From the NCBI RefSeq assembly GCF_015864825.1, contig NZ_JADYWL010000002.1:342346-406345 (forward strand): a DNA stretch of 64,000 bases. The letters run 5' to 3'. A program made the translations under genes and the position numbers. Within the stretch, counting starts at the first letter, position 1; every line of letters starts with the position of its first letter. Of this stretch, positions 31,499 through 48,512 are shown piece after piece. This DNA comes from Psychrobacter sp. NZS113. Lineage in GTDB: Bacteria > Pseudomonadota > Gammaproteobacteria > Pseudomonadales > Moraxellaceae. The notes beneath the pieces are model-generated. The model saw nothing but the letters and a program-made list of their open reading frames with translations. It ran no database searches and had not been told where the DNA came from.

Positions 31499-31616
31499 AA
31501 AAAAAAGCGACTCCAAAAGCACATCCTCGGCACACATCGTGACTATTACCGTTGCTACCTTCCGGTCCTGGCGGGATTCATAGAACAATGTTGCGAGGCT
31601 ACCAATGGAGCCACCA
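31499..31616 (-). ncRNA. ffs: 4.5S signal recognition particle RNA
   Basis: Minus-strand sequence contains the universal SRP loop core, CCAGGACCGGAAGGTAGCA, and the distal GTGTGCCGAGGATGTG, equivalent to E. coli GTGTGCCGGGATGTA. The ends GGTGGCTCC and GGAGTCGC pair over eight positions with two wobbles to close the rod. An 8-T run follows the 3' end (31499-31506) and a good promoter lies just upstream. The short type without an Alu domain, as expected in gammaproteobacteria. It guides membrane-protein ribosomes with Ffh. Confidence 0.93.
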
Positions 31617-42429: not shown

Positions 42430-42803
42430 TAGAGAACAATGAAATTCTGACTATGATAGCAATTATTTATCACAGCAGTGCTTTTGATTACGCATTTTTG
42501 TAGCTATCTATATCGATCACTGCCCAAGCCATGTCTCACTAATTTATCTTGAATTTCTCATAAAAATTAGCGTATTTACAATCAGAAAAGACTATAAAAT
42601 GAATAATTAGCAACTAAACATGAAAGTTATTCATGTTAGCGTGAAGAAACATTAGGTTAAAGTGGTTTATAAAGTAGTGATTTTTATAGATAATAAGCAT
42701 AGTTTTGCTAACTTATTGCTTTTTGTAATTTTTAACCATATTAGCGTCAAAATGGTTATTTTTTATTTCTGTACTCCTCAATATGATTACTCTGGAATTG
42801 ACT
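42430..42803. other. Divergent intergenic region with 8-bp inverted repeat
   Basis: 374 bp between the MscS gene (-) and the TonB-dependent receptor (+). A perfect inverted repeat AACATGAA-AGTTA-TTCATGTT (42617-42637) could be an operator. No cobalamin-riboswitch core and no Fur box were found. Confidence 0.45.
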
Positions 42804-44681
42804 ATGTTTTTACCACGTTCTTCTTCGACTGCCTATCTTCGCTTGTGTGTTCTAAGCGCACTTGGCGTATTTTCTTTAAATGCAACAGCAGCGACTGACG
42901 TAAGCAACAATGAAGTACCAGAAGTTGAGCTCGATGAAATTGTAGTAACAGCAACGCGTACACCGACTAAGGCTAGTAATGTTATTGCGCAGACACGCGT
43001 GGTCGATAGTGAAGAGCTAAAACATTATCAAGGGCAAAGTGCCTTTGAAGTATTAAAACAACAGCCTGGAATCAGTCATTATACTAACGGTGGCATGGGT
43101 ACCACCTCAAACTTTTATATGCGCGGTTACGATAGCAAACAAATCTTAGTATTGATTGATGGCATACGCTATAGCTCAGTTAGTAATGGTGGCGCAGCAC
43201 TTAACTTATTGCCTGCCGACCAAATTGATCGTATCGAAATTTTATATGGTGCATCGGGCTCTAGTATTTATGGTGCAGATGCGATGGGCGGTGTGATTCA
43301 AATATTTACCAAAGGTAGTAATATAGATCAAAGCAGTATGTCAGTTACCGCTGGTATCGGCTCAAATGATCAATACTTATACGGTGCTAGCGCACAGTTT
43401 GCCAATACTACTGGCACCACACTAAGCTTGTCAGTCAGCCATAATGAAACAGACGGCTTTAACGCAACGTTACCTGAACCTGATAATCAGTATTCGATTT
43501 ATAACAGTGATAATGACGGCTTTGAGAGTGATAACTTTAGCATTGCTCTAAATCAACGCATTAGTGAGCAATTGCTGGTGGGTGCTAGTGCTATATATAG
43601 CAAATCAACAACTGAATTTGATAACGGCGCAGTAGATGCTTTTTCAGATCAAGAAAATGGGGCGGCTCAGGCTTTTGTTGATTGGCGCTATATGCCAGGC
43701 TCATCAGTAAAGCTACAATACGGTCACTCTATTGATGAAACGGATACGCCAACATATGGTAGTCATTATGATACTGAGCAAGATCAAATCAGCTTGGTAG
43801 GTCAACATCAGCTTTCTATTGGTCAAGGTTTTTATGGGATCGAATATCTAAATCAAAGCCTAGACAGTAGTGCCTATGAAATTGATGATCGTGATGTAGC
43901 CAGTGCATTTTTTGGCTATGTATTTGATATCAACCAATTCGATGCCCAAGCAAACCTACGCTATGATGACAACTCACAGTACGGTGATGAAACTACCTAT
44001 AATTTAGGTGCTGCTTACCATATCAACCCTGATTGGCGTATTGGTACTAGCTATGCAAAAGGATTTCGCGCACCCACCTTCAATGAATTATACTTCCCTA
44101 ATTACTCAAATCCAGAGTTAGAACCTGAAACTAGTGATAACTATGAAGCCTTTGTTGAATACAGTACGCCATTACAGTCTACGCGCTTGACAGGCTACTA
44201 TAATGATGTTGAAGATTTGATCACTTCTTCCGCGCCTAGTTATATTCCTGAAAACGTTGCTAAAGCCAAAATAAAAGGGATTTCATTAACTTCGGATTGG
44301 ACTATTGATAACTACTTGTTTGGTGGTAGCTATGATTATCAACAAGCTAAAGATGACAGTGGCGAAAGTAATGATGGTAATTTTCTTGCCATTCGCCCTG
44401 AGCACAAAGGTCTGATTTATGTGGGCTATCGCTTACCAAGCTTAGATATTCGCGCTGAGTATCAGTACGTAGGTGATTACTATAGTGGTACAGATAACAT
44501 CGATTCACAACGCGTTGACAGCTATGGTTTGTTAAATGTAAGCGGTAACTATAAACTCACTGACAATCTATCTATGACTGCACGTTTAAATAATATTACT
44601 AATGAAAAGTATATTACTCTACCGGGTTATGACACTGATGGCACTAACTTCTTCACTTCATTAACTTATAACTGGTACTAG
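42804..44681 (+). CDS. TonB-dependent outer-membrane receptor (BtuB-like)
   Basis: 625 aa. Signal peptide (LCVLSALGVFSLNATAAT), TonB box DEIVVTATRT, plug domain with LVLIDGIRYSSVSNG and DRIEILYGASGSSIYGADAMGGVIQIFTK, and a beta-barrel ending in an aromatic residue (FFTSLTYNWY). Size and plug sequence are closest to BtuB and catecholate-siderophore receptors; the cargo is undecided. GGA at seven bases favours ATG 42804 over the ATG seven codons earlier. Strong terminator follows. Confidence 0.88.
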   Translation: MFLPRSSSTAYLRLCVLSALGVFSLNATAATDVSNNEVPEVELDEIVVTATRTPTKASNVIAQTRVVDSEELKHYQGQSAFEVLKQQPGISHYTNGGMGTTSNFYMRGYDSKQILVLIDGIRYSSVSNGGAALNLLPADQIDRIEILYGASGSSIYGADAMGGVIQIFTKGSNIDQSSMSVTAGIGSNDQYLYGASAQFANTTGTTLSLSVSHNETDGFNATLPEPDNQYSIYNSDNDGFESDNFSIALNQRISEQLLVGASAIYSKSTTEFDNGAVDAFSDQENGAAQAFVDWRYMPGSSVKLQYGHSIDETDTPTYGSHYDTEQDQISLVGQHQLSIGQGFYGIEYLNQSLDSSAYEIDDRDVASAFFGYVFDINQFDAQANLRYDDNSQYGDETTYNLGAAYHINPDWRIGTSYAKGFRAPTFNELYFPNYSNPELEPETSDNYEAFVEYSTPLQSTRLTGYYNDVEDLITSSAPSYIPENVAKAKIKGISLTSDWTIDNYLFGGSYDYQQAKDDSGESNDGNFLAIRPEHKGLIYVGYRLPSLDIRAEYQYVGDYYSGTDNIDSQRVDSYGLLNVSGNYKLTDNLSMTARLNNITNEKYITLPGYDTDGTNFFTSLTYNWY

Positions 44682-44730: not shown

Positions 44731-44767
44731 ATGGGTGACAATGTGAGCATCATCTATTACAATGACA

Positions 44768-44906
44768 CCCTCCGAGAGGTGTTGCGCCATGACCACGAAT
44801 ATTGCATTGAAAGCTAAAATCATGCAAATCATAGGTTATGTTAGGCTCGGTTAACTGTCGAGTGTCCTATTTTTGGTCACTCACAGCGCAAACAACGGCA
44901 CCTGCG
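44768..44906 (+). promoter_or_regulatory. S-adenosylhomocysteine (SAH) riboswitch
   Basis: Directly upstream of ahcY. CCGAG (44772-44776) pairs with CTCGG (44846-44850) as P1. The conserved core reads GAGAGGTGTTGC after P1 and AGGCTCGG at its closing side. AACGGCACCT (44894-44903) supplies the other half of the P2 pseudoknot-like pairing (AGGTG with CACCT), equivalent to AACGGCGCTC in the Ralstonia aptamer as I recall it. The insert between core halves is long (about 57 nt) with a TTGCAT/ATGCAA stem, and a second stem GAGTG/CACTC lies between P1 and P2. SAH binding turns expression on in known cases, matching induction of SAH hydrolase. Confidence 0.78.
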
Positions 44907-44951
44907 TTTTTATTCTTTTTATCATAAATTAACCACTGATAGGAGCATATT

Positions 44952-46376
44952 ATGGACGCAGTGTCTAACACCCCATCTGCCCATACGATCGATCCCTCTT
45001 TCACTGACTATAAAGTCGCTGACATCAGCCTTGCTGATTACGGCCGCCGTGAAATCACCCTTGCTGAAGCCGAAATGCCTGCCCTTATGGGTTTGCGTCG
45101 TCGCTACGAAGCCGATCAACCGCTTAAAGGCGCAAAAATCGCTGGCTGTATCCACATGACCATCCAAACTGCCGTACTTATCGAGACATTAGTCGCGCTA
45201 GGTGCTGAAGTACGCTGGACATCATGTAACATCTTCTCAACTCAAGATCATGCTGCTGCTGCAATTGCTGCTGCTGGTATCTCTGTTTATGCTTGGAAAG
45301 GCGAAACAGAAGAAGAGTACGAATGGTGCTTGCGTCAGCAAGTTCACGTTGGCGGCGAAGCATCAGGTCAGCTTTGGGATGCCAACCTAATTTTGGATGA
45401 TGGTGGTGATTTGACCGCTCTTATTCATAATGACTATGCTGAGCTTCTTGATAATATCCATGGCATCTCAGAAGAGACTACCACTGGTGTACATCGCTTA
45501 GTTGAGATGTTAAGCAAAGGTACGCTTAAAGTACCAGCAATCAACGTCAACGACGCTGTTACTAAGTCTAAAAACGACAACAAGTACGGCTGCCGCCATA
45601 GCTTAAACGATGCTATCAAACGCGCTACCGATATGTTCCTTGCTGGTCGCCGCGCTTTGGTTATCGGTTATGGCGATGTAGGTAAAGGCTCTACGCAAAG
45701 CTTACGTCAAGAAGGCATGATCGTACGTGTATCAGAAGTCGATCCTATCTGTGCCATGCAGGCTTGTATGGATGGCTTTGAAGTATTGTCACCTTACATC
45801 AATGGCGATAACACTGGCGGCGCTTCAAGTATCAACACGCGTCTGCTAGAAGATACCGACATGATTGTGACCACGACTGGTAACTACCATGTATGTGACA
45901 GACATATGCTAGCAGCACTTAAGCCTGGTGCAGTTGTTTGTAACATTGGTCACTTTGATACTGAAATTGACACCCAATTCATGCGTGACAACTGGCGCTG
46001 GGTTGAGATCAAGCCACAAGTACATCAAATCTTCCGCTCAGACGATGAGAACGATTATTTGATCTTGCTTGCTGAAGGTCGTCTAGTGAACCTAGGTAAT
46101 GCGACTGGTCACCCATCACGTGTGATGGACGGCTCATTTGCCAACCAAGTATTGGCTCAAATGTATTTGTTCGAAGAAAAGTTCGCTGAGCTACCAGCAG
46201 ACAAGCGTACTGATAACTTATACGTAAAAGTATTACCTAAGAAATTAGACGAAGAAGTAGCCGCTGCGATGGTTGCAGGCTTCAACGGTACTTTAACCAA
46301 GCTGACTGAAAAGCAAGCTGAATACTTAGGTGTATCAGTCGAAGGCCCATTCAAGCCTGACGCTTATAAATACTAA
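44952..46376 (+). CDS. ahcY: Adenosylhomocysteinase
   Basis: 474 aa. Hydrolyses S-adenosylhomocysteine to homocysteine and adenosine, relieving product inhibition of methyltransferases. Motifs: [39 protein letters not shown] (substrate site), [18 protein letters not shown] (NAD site) and the C-terminal KPDAYKY with the lysine and tyrosine that touch the neighbouring subunit's NAD. AGGAG precedes the ATG. Paired with metF 13 nt downstream and controlled by the riboswitch upstream. Confidence 0.97.
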
Positions 46377-46389
46377 AAGGAGCCAGACT

Positions 46390-47238
46390 GTGAGTAAGCC
46401 TGCGTTCTCTTTTGAGTTTTTCCCTGCAAAAACTGAGCAGGGACACGAAAAGCTACTGAGTACTTATGATGAGCTGAACAAGCTGTCACCGAGTTATTTT
46501 TCGGTGACTTACGGCGCTGGTGGTTCCACCCGCAGTCGCACCTTGGATATTGTGCAAGCATTATGTACACGTGGTGACACTGGTGTGGCTCCTCATATGT
46601 CCTGCATTGGTGATGACAAAAGTGAAATCGCTGAACTATTGACGCATTACAAAAGTTTAGGCATCAATCGTATTGTCGCGCTTCGTGGTGACTTACCGTC
46701 AGGTCAAGTTGGTATGGGTGAGCTACCGTTTGCGTTAGACTTAGTCAAGTTTATCCGTGAACATTCAGGCGATCATTTTCGCATTGAAGTAGCTGCCTAT
46801 CCTGAAATGCACCCACAAGCGCGTAGCTTTGATTTTGATATTGACAATTTGGTCAACAAATTCCAAGCGGGTGCAGATGCAGCGATTACACAGTTCTTCT
46901 ATAATGCTGATAGTTATCTATACTTGCGCGATACGTTAGAGAAGCGTGGTGTTGATACGGTTGCTAAGCCATTGGTCGCTGGCATCATGCCAATTACCAA
47001 TTCTAGCAATCTGGTGCGATTTGCTGATAGCTGTGGCGCTGATATTCCACGTTATGTGCGCAAGCAACTAGCGGATTTTGGTGATGATAGCAAGGCCATC
47101 CGTGAATTTGGCTTTGATGTGGTGTATCGCTTATGTGAGCGCCTCATTAGCGAAGGTGTACCTGCCATGCATTTTTATAGTATGAATAAGGTTGAACCTA
47201 ATAAGCGCCTGGTTGAAGCATTAGGCTTGACTGCTTAA
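46390..47238 (+). CDS. metF: Methylenetetrahydrofolate reductase
   Basis: 282 aa flavoenzyme making 5-methyl-THF for methionine synthesis. FSFEFFPAKTEQGHEKL, FSVTYGAGGSTRSRT, IVALRGDLPSG, AAYPEMHP and ITQFFYNADSYL are canonical. It starts at GTG 46390, eight bases after AGGAG that overlaps the ahcY end region; the open frame continues up into ahcY, but that part has no homology. Together with ahcY it turns SAH-derived homocysteine back to methionine. Confidence 0.96.
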   Translation: MSKPAFSFEFFPAKTEQGHEKLLSTYDELNKLSPSYFSVTYGAGGSTRSRTLDIVQALCTRGDTGVAPHMSCIGDDKSEIAELLTHYKSLGINRIVALRGDLPSGQVGMGELPFALDLVKFIREHSGDHFRIEVAAYPEMHPQARSFDFDIDNLVNKFQAGADAAITQFFYNADSYLYLRDTLEKRGVDTVAKPLVAGIMPITNSSNLVRFADSCGADIPRYVRKQLADFGDDSKAIREFGFDVVYRLCERLISEGVPAMHFYSMNKVEPNKRLVEALGLTA

Positions 47239-47645: not shown

Positions 47646-48512
47646 GTGCGACGTTTTTTTTATGCTACTAGCAATGACATCAATAATGCAGATGAAACAA
47701 CTTACCCTCAACTTAGCACGTTACCTATAGGCACCAGTGTCGACCTCACAGAAAGCATCGTTCATCACTGGTGCCGTGTGCTACGCGCAAACATTGGCGA
47801 TCAAGGTATTTTATTCGATGGGTTTGGCGGTGAATATCAGGTAGCGCTACAAACCATTAGTAAAAAGCATGCCACTGTGACTTTATTGGCTCATATAAAT
47901 GATGATCGTACTGCCCCATTTATCAGTAAAATTGGTTTGGTGATGAGTCGCGGTGAGCGCATGGATTATGCGATTCAAAAGTCAACCGAGCTGGGTGTAA
48001 CGGCTATTCAATTACTAAGTAGCCATCATGGCGAGGTCAACCTAAAACCTGCACAAGTGGAGAAAAAACTGGCACATTGGCAGCAAGTGGCTATTGCCGC
48101 CTGTGAGCAATGCGGCCTCAATCGTCCACCGCTTATTCTCGCACCAGTCTCTATCAATGACTGGTTACTTAAGGTAGTAGATAACAACCAAAAAATGGCC
48201 ATCAGCCCTATAGTAACTGCACTCAGTCAAGATACTTACTATCAACGACTACAGCAGCCAGCTGACTTGCGTATGCAGTTGAGCGTGCCAGCATTAGGAC
48301 AGCCTGCGGTGCCGGAGTTGTTGACAGTCACGCTAAAGCAGTCAGCACCTTATATCGAGCTATTGATTGGCCCTGAGGGCGGGCTCAGCGACGATGAATG
48401 CCTGAAAGCAGCAGATGTAGGTTTCCATCCTTGGCAAATTGGCACGAGAGTGTTACGTACCGAAACCGCACCAGTCGTTGCATTAGCGACCTTACATGCT
48501 TTGAGTCATTAG
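47646..48512 (+). CDS. rsmE: 16S rRNA m3U1498 methyltransferase RsmE
   Basis: 288 aa SPOUT-fold methyltransferase. An N-terminal PUA-like domain (MRRFFYATS; HWCRVLRANIGDQGILFDG) precedes the trefoil-knot SAM site with IELLIGPEGGLSDDE and LGTRVLRTETAPVVAL-like (IGTRVLRTETAPVVAL). It starts at GTG 47646 with AGGA upstream, and length is near the family norm (about 245) plus a ~20-aa insertion around residues 190-215. Confidence 0.94.
   Translation: MRRFFYATSNDINNADETTYPQLSTLPIGTSVDLTESIVHHWCRVLRANIGDQGILFDGFGGEYQVALQTISKKHATVTLLAHINDDRTAPFISKIGLVMSRGERMDYAIQKSTELGVTAIQLLSSHHGEVNLKPAQVEKKLAHWQQVAIAACEQCGLNRPPLILAPVSINDWLLKVVDNNQKMAISPIVTALSQDTYYQRLQQPADLRMQLSVPALGQPAVPELLTVTLKQSAPYIELLIGPEGGLSDDECLKAADVGFHPWQIGTRVLRTETAPVVALATLHALSH

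Follow-up and report, generated by a model that had tools for sequence, protein, structure and literature searches.

How the gene for adenosylhomocysteinase, ahcY, is controlled in Psychrobacter sp. NZS113 is a question raised by the leader that precedes it, which a first-pass annotation took for an SAH riboswitch with an enlarged insert. The questions addressed here are whether this leader belongs to the known class and by what means such an aptamer could turn the gene on. The window comprises the whole stretch of 64,000 nt that was analysed, and all positions are given in its numbering; the features of the leader described below lie on the plus strand.

The ahcY–metF locus and its probable promoter

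The first-pass annotation had placed ahcY and metF downstream of the leader, and both identities were confirmed with NCBIfam models. The product of ahcY (44952–46376, plus strand) matched TIGR00936 with 522.2 bits (cut-off 497.6), and that of metF (46390–47238, plus strand) matched TIGR00676 with 294.0 bits (cut-off 293.7) for 46402–47235. The listed ORF of metF opens at 46330, but the likely start is the GTG at 46390, which lies behind AAAAGGAG and 13 nt past the ahcY stop codon. The leader is thus found 5' of SAH-cycle genes (ahcY and metF), as in the class. A further gene, rsmE (47646–48512, plus strand; NF008692, 295.3 bits, cut-off 196), follows about 400 nt 3' of metF in the window, where its membership of the operon is uncertain; in the named Acinetobacter loci, rsmE lies at most about 150 nt behind metF.

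Upstream of ahcY, the window carries a gene for a TonB-dependent receptor (42783–44681), which most resembles a vitamin B12 receptor (389.7 bits against a cut-off of 599.7), and a TonB-dependent receptor gene was also present 5' of ahcY in seven of the eight named Psychrobacter loci. No cobalamin riboswitch was found by Rfam at gathering score in the 64-kb window. A bacterial small SRP RNA was located at 31511–31607 on the minus strand (69.6 bits).

A sigma-70-type promoter, GTGACA-17-TACAAT (44735–44763), with 10 of 12 consensus matches, precedes the leader; promoter-grade sites numbered two in the region, compared with 1.1 expected by chance. Each letter of GTGACA was retained in 73–83 % of the genus leaders (n=104), and TANNNT occurred at −22 to −5 of the P1 helix in all 104. 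Since a promoter-like sequence ends at 44763 and TANNNT recurs there throughout the genus, the transcript probably starts just 5' of P1, at about 44769–44771.

Elements of the aptamer

All of the elements named in the first-pass annotation were present in the leader (44768–44906). The proposed P1 helix was found between CCGAG (44772–44776) and CTCGG (44846–44850), and it covaries in related leaders. A second pairing, between AGGTG (44777–44781) and CACCT (44899–44903), also stands, but its earlier label of P2 does not: this helix is the pseudoknot, which U44782 could lengthen by pairing with G44898, whilst the P2 arm proper is formed by CATGACC (44788–44794) and GGTTATG (44834–44840). The enlarged P2 arm (44788–44840) carries an inner stem, TTGCAT (44802–44807)/ATGCAA (44822–44827), in agreement with the perfect 6-bp stem noted previously in about 57 nt between the core halves, for which 57 nt were measured.

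The core words TTGC (44782–44785) and AGGCTCGG (44843–44850, including the P1 3' strand) were invariant in an alignment of 57 leaders (A1). The third block, AACGGCACCTGCG (44894–44906), consists of the conserved AACGG, the pseudoknot 3' strand CACCT and then GCG. As had been claimed, TTGC, AGGCTCGG and AACGGC (44894–44899) follow each other in the expected order, and so do the words of the class (CCGAG, [CT]TGC, AGGCTC and AACGG). Between P1 and the pseudoknot, a variable linker hairpin of the form CTGT-c-GAGTG/CACTC-ACAG (44855–44886) was seen in the sequence. The reported stem GAGTG (44860–44864)/CACTC (44878–44882) exists, but as the upper part of this longer hairpin, whose base is CTGT (44855–44858)/ACAG (44883–44886); the basal pairs were unchanged in 49–56 of the 57 rows of A1, with one cell altered on both sides. 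The aptamer region of the window folded only modestly better than shuffled sequences (z −1.55).

A P1 helix, a P2 arm and a pseudoknot are therefore all found, P1 and the pseudoknot by covariation as well. The core words and their order, the pairings, the target gene and the retention of P1 and pseudoknot pairing through two-sided changes in relatives support the earlier reading of 44768–44906 as an SAH riboswitch, here a variant of the class with enlarged arms that would bind SAH. The same fold could in principle serve another ligand, such as SAM or another adenosyl compound, but the leader shares its conserved core words with the Rfam family RF01057 and the target gene encodes the SAH-consuming enzyme, and we give this alternative the least credence of all.

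Several other features were considered and rejected. An upstream ORF within the P2 arm (ATG 44789 to TAA 44854) has its ATG triplet in eight of the 104 genus leaders, 76 having ATA instead. The hairpin ACACC (44765–44769)/GGTGT, considered as an anti-aptamer, lies 5' of the likely start site, and many relatives do not retain it; UUGC/GCAA, considered as a lock of the apo state, is broken in several relatives.

Recognition by covariance models

The match to RF01057 that would have been expected from the first-pass annotation did not appear in the window at the gathering score of 37 bits, and a search of the strain's own genome gave no match at E ≤ 0.001. With the threshold lifted, RF01057 aligned to 44768–44910 with 15.1 bits (E 1.6), a score about equalled there by three unrelated families. 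The core words matched in this alignment, and long insertions were placed in the P2 loop and the linker, which suggests that these insertions account for the low score. Since 15.1 bits is below the gathering score, the leader is filed here as a class variant and not as a scored Rfam member.

A covariance model, R1, was built from 22 compact leaders, excluding the long-insert clade of the window and including seven compact Psychrobacter leaders. R1 matched the window at 44768–44966 with 93.4 bits and an E of 3.7e-22, and its second-best match in the window had an E of 5.3. Across 199 genomes drawn from the family, R1 gave matches at E ≤ 0.01 in 168 and no match in 31, whereas RF01057 scored above its cut-off in 27, all from genera other than that of the window, and reached E ≤ 1 in 105; the comparison is rough as the thresholds differ in kind, and R1 missed some genera where RF01057 scores well (e.g. 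G139 and G303). These counts (27 against 168 of 199) indicate that the riboswitch is probably under-annotated in the Moraxellaceae, some members of which are well studied. Five loci whose arms or linkers are long gave no Rfam match. Weak RF01057 matches in two loci of one genome (L050 and L053, G198) resemble a dispersed repeat, ATTGCGAGGAGC...GCTCGCAATGACA, and are probably false positives.

Covariation of P1 and the pseudoknot

Covariation had been anticipated among the Psychrobacter leaders. The pairs of the P2 arm proper vary in type and for the most part remain paired (the first six basal pairs were paired in 78–98 of the 98 unique genus leaders, with pair types varying from the second pair on), while P1 and the pseudoknot hardly vary within the genus. 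RNAalifold, which is unable to represent pseudoknots, paired the pseudoknot strands of A1 as a nested stem, and it detected next to no covariation inside the genus.

Wider variation was found on a tree of distinct ahcY sequences (223 rows). P1 was represented by CCGAG/CTCGG in 124 rows, TCGAG/CTCGA in 73, CTGAG/CTCAG in nine, TTGAG/CTCAA in six and CCAAG/CTTGG in four, the other seven being of other types and partly unpaired; GCAAG/CTTGC was also seen. The pseudoknot was AGGTG/CACCT in 97 rows, GGATG/CATCC in 67, GGGCG/CGCCC in 21, GAGCG/CGCTC in 14 and of other types in 24, with AGATG/CATCT and GGGTG/CACCC as further types in relatives. At least 22 changes of state were counted for P1 and at least 19 for the pseudoknot, where the rows of the genus, order/family and named groups lean towards pairing because the core scan that supplied them demanded at least four of five P1 pairs and all five pseudoknot pairs. 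The same lean applies to the length ranges given below; the scan omitted six loci from the order/family set of 50 and 35 from the named set of 80.

Pairing was also assessed without this condition, in 45 named loci, in a set of 59 loci (L240 unanchored) and in the Moraxella-type loci (L333 unanchored). Anchor words were found within 460 nt 5' of ahcY in 45 of the 80 named loci, in which P1 cells were paired in 43–45 and pseudoknot cells in 38–44; the seven worst-pairing loci, six of them Pseudomonas, had been anchored on an earlier AACG. Two of the 35 anchor-less loci, both Moraxella, carried the variant CCAAG/CTTGG and AGATG/CATCT. In an alignment of 22 compact leaders (A2), 96.1 % of cells were paired, compared with 87.7 % in shuffles and 24.1–40.1 % in slid versions. 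These 22 were picked from 36 offered leaders by a start motif, which predetermines some of the start-region helix described below, so that covariation of that helix measured on A2 leans towards it.

Recurrence in Psychrobacter and range of arm lengths

In the genus, a 366-base query matched 103 of the 105 genomes and gave nothing in the remaining two (G077 and G095). The core 14-mer CCGAGRGGTGTTGC was single copy in the strain's own genome and present in 102 of the 105 (once in 101, twice in G081), whilst its reversal, used as a control pattern, gave no hit, so that the recurrence exceeds chance. The three-part core was found, by the scan that required pairing, in all 105 fetched genus loci (104 after removal of L049, a duplicate of L105). 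A plain pattern free of pairing recovered 84 of the 105, one of them (L121) with a false 3' strand; of the other 21, 20 were displayed by sequence and one (L127) is CTGAG/CTCAG.

Among the 98 unique genus leaders, the P2 arm ranged from 22 to 104 nt and the linker between P1 and the pseudoknot from 21 to 241 nt. The values for the window (P2 arm insert 57 nt, linker 43 nt) are typical of the genus. The enlarged insert is thus real, as first described, but not special, its length falling within the spread that the genus tolerates.

A divergent Psychrobacter subclade (L121, L122, L124, L125 and L126) has linkers of 191–241 nt and a core that is almost unchanged; Rfam at gathering scores gave no family in L121 and L126. 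The 258-nt linkers of two Moraxella-type loci (L138 and L299) hold an inverted repeat and resemble a small mobile element within the aptamer, with repeat arms TGTAGGGGCGTGC...GCACGTCCCTACA in the L138 linker (approximately 2700–2960) and a nearly identical sequence in L299. The label Moraxella-type was assigned by inference; the leader of L300 (G314) is the same as that of L136, from Moraxella sp. VT-16-12. A Moraxellaceae-like ahcY leader was also present in L135 (BMPS01000002.1), a record titled Streptomyces cinereus JCM 3040; this title is probably wrong, as the counterpart contig (L315, G330) is placed in the window's family.

Predicted pairing of an aptamer strand with the start of ahcY

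A terminator-like hairpin with a T-rich tail was found in the leader (44845–44863; one found, 0.2 expected), and a T-rich tract lies behind GCG, both of which would suit control of transcription through a leader terminator. The hairpin would, however, end transcription ahead of the pseudoknot 3' strand, its second arm varies among relatives, for which it was rejected as a candidate, and Acinetobacter-type leaders have no T-tract directly behind CATCCGCG. Transcriptional control of this kind is therefore regarded as highly improbable.

A different partner for the aptamer emerged from the free MFE fold, in which GGCACCUGCGUUU (44897–44909) pairs with GGACGCAGTGTC (44954–44965) in codons 1–5 of ahcY. 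The helix, termed the lock here, joins GGCAC-c-UGCGUUU, with C44902 bulged, to GGACGCA-GUGUC and extends from the third base of the start codon into codon 5; its 3' strand is further marked by codon conservation and covariation. The 5' strand of the lock holds all five bases of the pseudoknot 3' strand (44899–44903), and lock and aptamer would consequently be mutually exclusive. An aptamer strand in competition with a start-region lock, as in an ON switch, is thus present at the level of the sequence. Inside the lock helix, the fold places a Shine–Dalgarno hairpin (44916–44945) formed by TTTTTATCA (44916–44924) and TGATAGGAG (44937–44945), which holds AGGAG (44941–44945); in the divergent subclade an alternative CCTT/AAGG was recognized by eye.

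In folding without pseudoknots, which favours the lock, lock probability exceeded 0.5 in 102/103 leaders of Psychrobacter, 64/90 of Acinetobacter type and 5/5 of Moraxella type; the corresponding counts were 0/21 for the Pseudomonas type, 0/14 for the GAGCG type and 1/5 for other leaders. The start window was the best partner within the first 200 nt of the coding sequence in 102/103 Psychrobacter, 42/90 Acinetobacter-type and 0/21 Pseudomonas-type leaders, the lock being weaker by both measures in the Acinetobacter-type leaders than in Psychrobacter. No lock motif was seen near the ahcY start in the 19 loci looked at there among the other 33 anchor-less named loci. When P1 was forced in a pseudoknot-free fold, the Shine–Dalgarno sequence was not freed (unpaired 0.10 to 0.12; means, 102 leaders) and the AUG became less accessible (0.53 to 0.12; means, 102 leaders), so that folding does not display the ON state.

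Conservation and compensatory change of the lock

Codon usage at the start of ahcY was nearly uniform in the 103 Psychrobacter loci, with GAC as codon 2 in 102, GCA for Ala3 in 103 and GTG for Val4 in 103. In the stretch counted further along the gene, 888 Ala codons included 81 GCA and 308 Val codons included 22 GTG; none of the 18 conserved four-fold codons was invariant there, and two of all 52 conserved codons were synonymously invariant. Immediately outside the lock helix, the third position of the Ser5 codon varies (TCT 95, TCG five, TCA three). A lock pair was lost at c+12 in two of the 103 leaders and at c+13 in three. Eight named Psychrobacter loci and L234, taken as repeats of genus genomes, were kept outside the tree and the codon counts, and L056, whose start still has ATGGACGCAGTGTC, was left out of the codon counts on account of its altered Shine–Dalgarno sequence.

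The Acinetobacter-type loci (91 with L135, representing 72 distinct leaders, some species being in twice through named and unnamed records) had GCG as codon 3 in 89 of 90, opposite CCGCG in the leader; GCG accounted for 79 of 917 later Ala codons. The sole GCA among the 90, in Acinetobacter qingfengensis (L140), was accompanied by CTGCG in the leader, both sides having changed, and the key lock pair was accordingly C-G in 89 and T-A in one. On the ahcY tree this pair, scored in 184 rows (105 TA, 79 CG), changed twice, each time on both sides; with only two changes a sign test cannot reach significance.

The lock was also compared in a Moraxella-type group (L319–L327) found with R1, a model that includes the lock; L316, which had been anchored on a false 3' strand, was excluded from the lock comparison. 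In four of these loci (L319, L320, L321 and L327) the leader strand GACATCTG pairs with CAGATGTC, with the ATG inside the helix, and L320 and L321 have 13 consecutive lock pairs, one of them G-U. In L322–L326 and L138, as well as in L135, no ATG stands immediately 5' of GACGCAGTGTC, and yet GACGCAGTGTC is kept, part of which may therefore be non-coding there.

An SAH riboswitch might be present and its pairing with codons 1–5 incidental, the ahcY start being kept for the protein or for efficient translation and control being exerted by the Shine–Dalgarno hairpin alone. This would agree with the constancy of AhcY residues 3–5 in all 103 Psychrobacter loci, with the recurrence of the Shine–Dalgarno hairpin shape and with the fact that the key pair changed only twice, but it does not readily account for the conservation of precisely those codons that are rare later in ahcY, for the two-sided alteration in L140, for the retention of GACGCAGTGTC where part of it may be non-coding, or for a helix remade with other sequence in L319–L321 and L327; moreover, the lock is absent from the Pseudomonas-type leaders tested (0/21). 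Incidental pairing is thus considered unlikely, although less so than a terminator, and the lock on the ahcY start is probably under selection.

Proposed mechanism

The ahcY(–metF) leader is likely to be an SAH riboswitch variant that acts as a translational ON switch. Support for this reading at the sequence level comes from the homology and covariation of the aptamer, the single-copy core 14-mer, the target gene, the overlap of the two pairings, the conservation of synonymous sites and the compensatory changes in the lock; beyond this we infer the binding of SAH, the direction of switching, the control of translation over transcription and the role of the arms as mere spacers. SAH riboswitches are said, from the title of a 2008 report by Wang et al., to activate genes. 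That the strand completing the aptamer can pair with the first codons of ahcY points to a way in which expression would be switched on. Without SAH, 44897–44909 would pair with codons 1–5 (44954–44965), and the lock helix would close over the weak Shine–Dalgarno hairpin and shut the start region. With SAH, P1, P2 and the pseudoknot AGGUG/CACCU would form, the pseudoknot would withdraw CACCU from the lock and translation of ahcY would start. The long P2 arm and the linker hairpin would be tolerated spacers.

With almost the same confidence, we propose that an SAH riboswitch variant with a pseudoknot strand antisense to the ahcY start is common to the Moraxellaceae (Psychrobacter, Moraxella, Acinetobacter and relatives). 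The RNA switch, and not the protein, would then fix the first codons, and the lock would have been rebuilt by compensatory change, in some Moraxella-type loci with the start codon in the helix. This would be a case in which a riboswitch constrains the coding sequence under its control, by a mechanism open to testing with synonymous mutations. The leaders also display large insertions tolerated within a pseudoknotted aptamer, the linkers reaching 241 nt in the genus and 258 nt in two Moraxella-type loci.

Comparison with known systems

The main text of Leyn et al. (2014; PMC4239095) reports SAH riboswitches, from a scan with Rfam models, in two of four Moraxellaceae genomes, with a regulon of ahcY, metF and COG1385 (rsmE) that resembles the locus described here. 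It contains no occurrence of Psychrobacter or Acinetobacter, and its passages on the Moraxellaceae riboswitch give no expression platform for it; on the RF01057 scores obtained in this work, Acinetobacter would be the likelier source of the two positive genomes. In the portion of the open-access SAH riboswitch literature that was covered, subscription papers being outside its scope, no description of a lock with the ahcY start was found, and no open-access work joining the SAH riboswitch with Psychrobacter was found.

The leader shares with RF01057 its core words, P1, P2, the pseudoknot and its place 5' of ahcY(–metF). It differs in its enlarged P2 arm and linker, with a score below the gathering score, and in that its pseudoknot has a competing strand within the coding region of ahcY. 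With its long arms, the riboswitch itself thus belongs, as expected, to a known class, whereas the ahcY-start lock, conserved and remade across the family, would be the new part. In the Pseudomonas-type SAH riboswitch (GGGCG/CGCCC) the pseudoknot 3' strand can likewise be engaged by a downstream strand, but by another route: a coding-region lock was absent from 21 of the 21 leaders tested, and in 19 of 28 CGCCC runs into CCATTCG, which is complementary to CGAATGG at the Shine–Dalgarno sequence.
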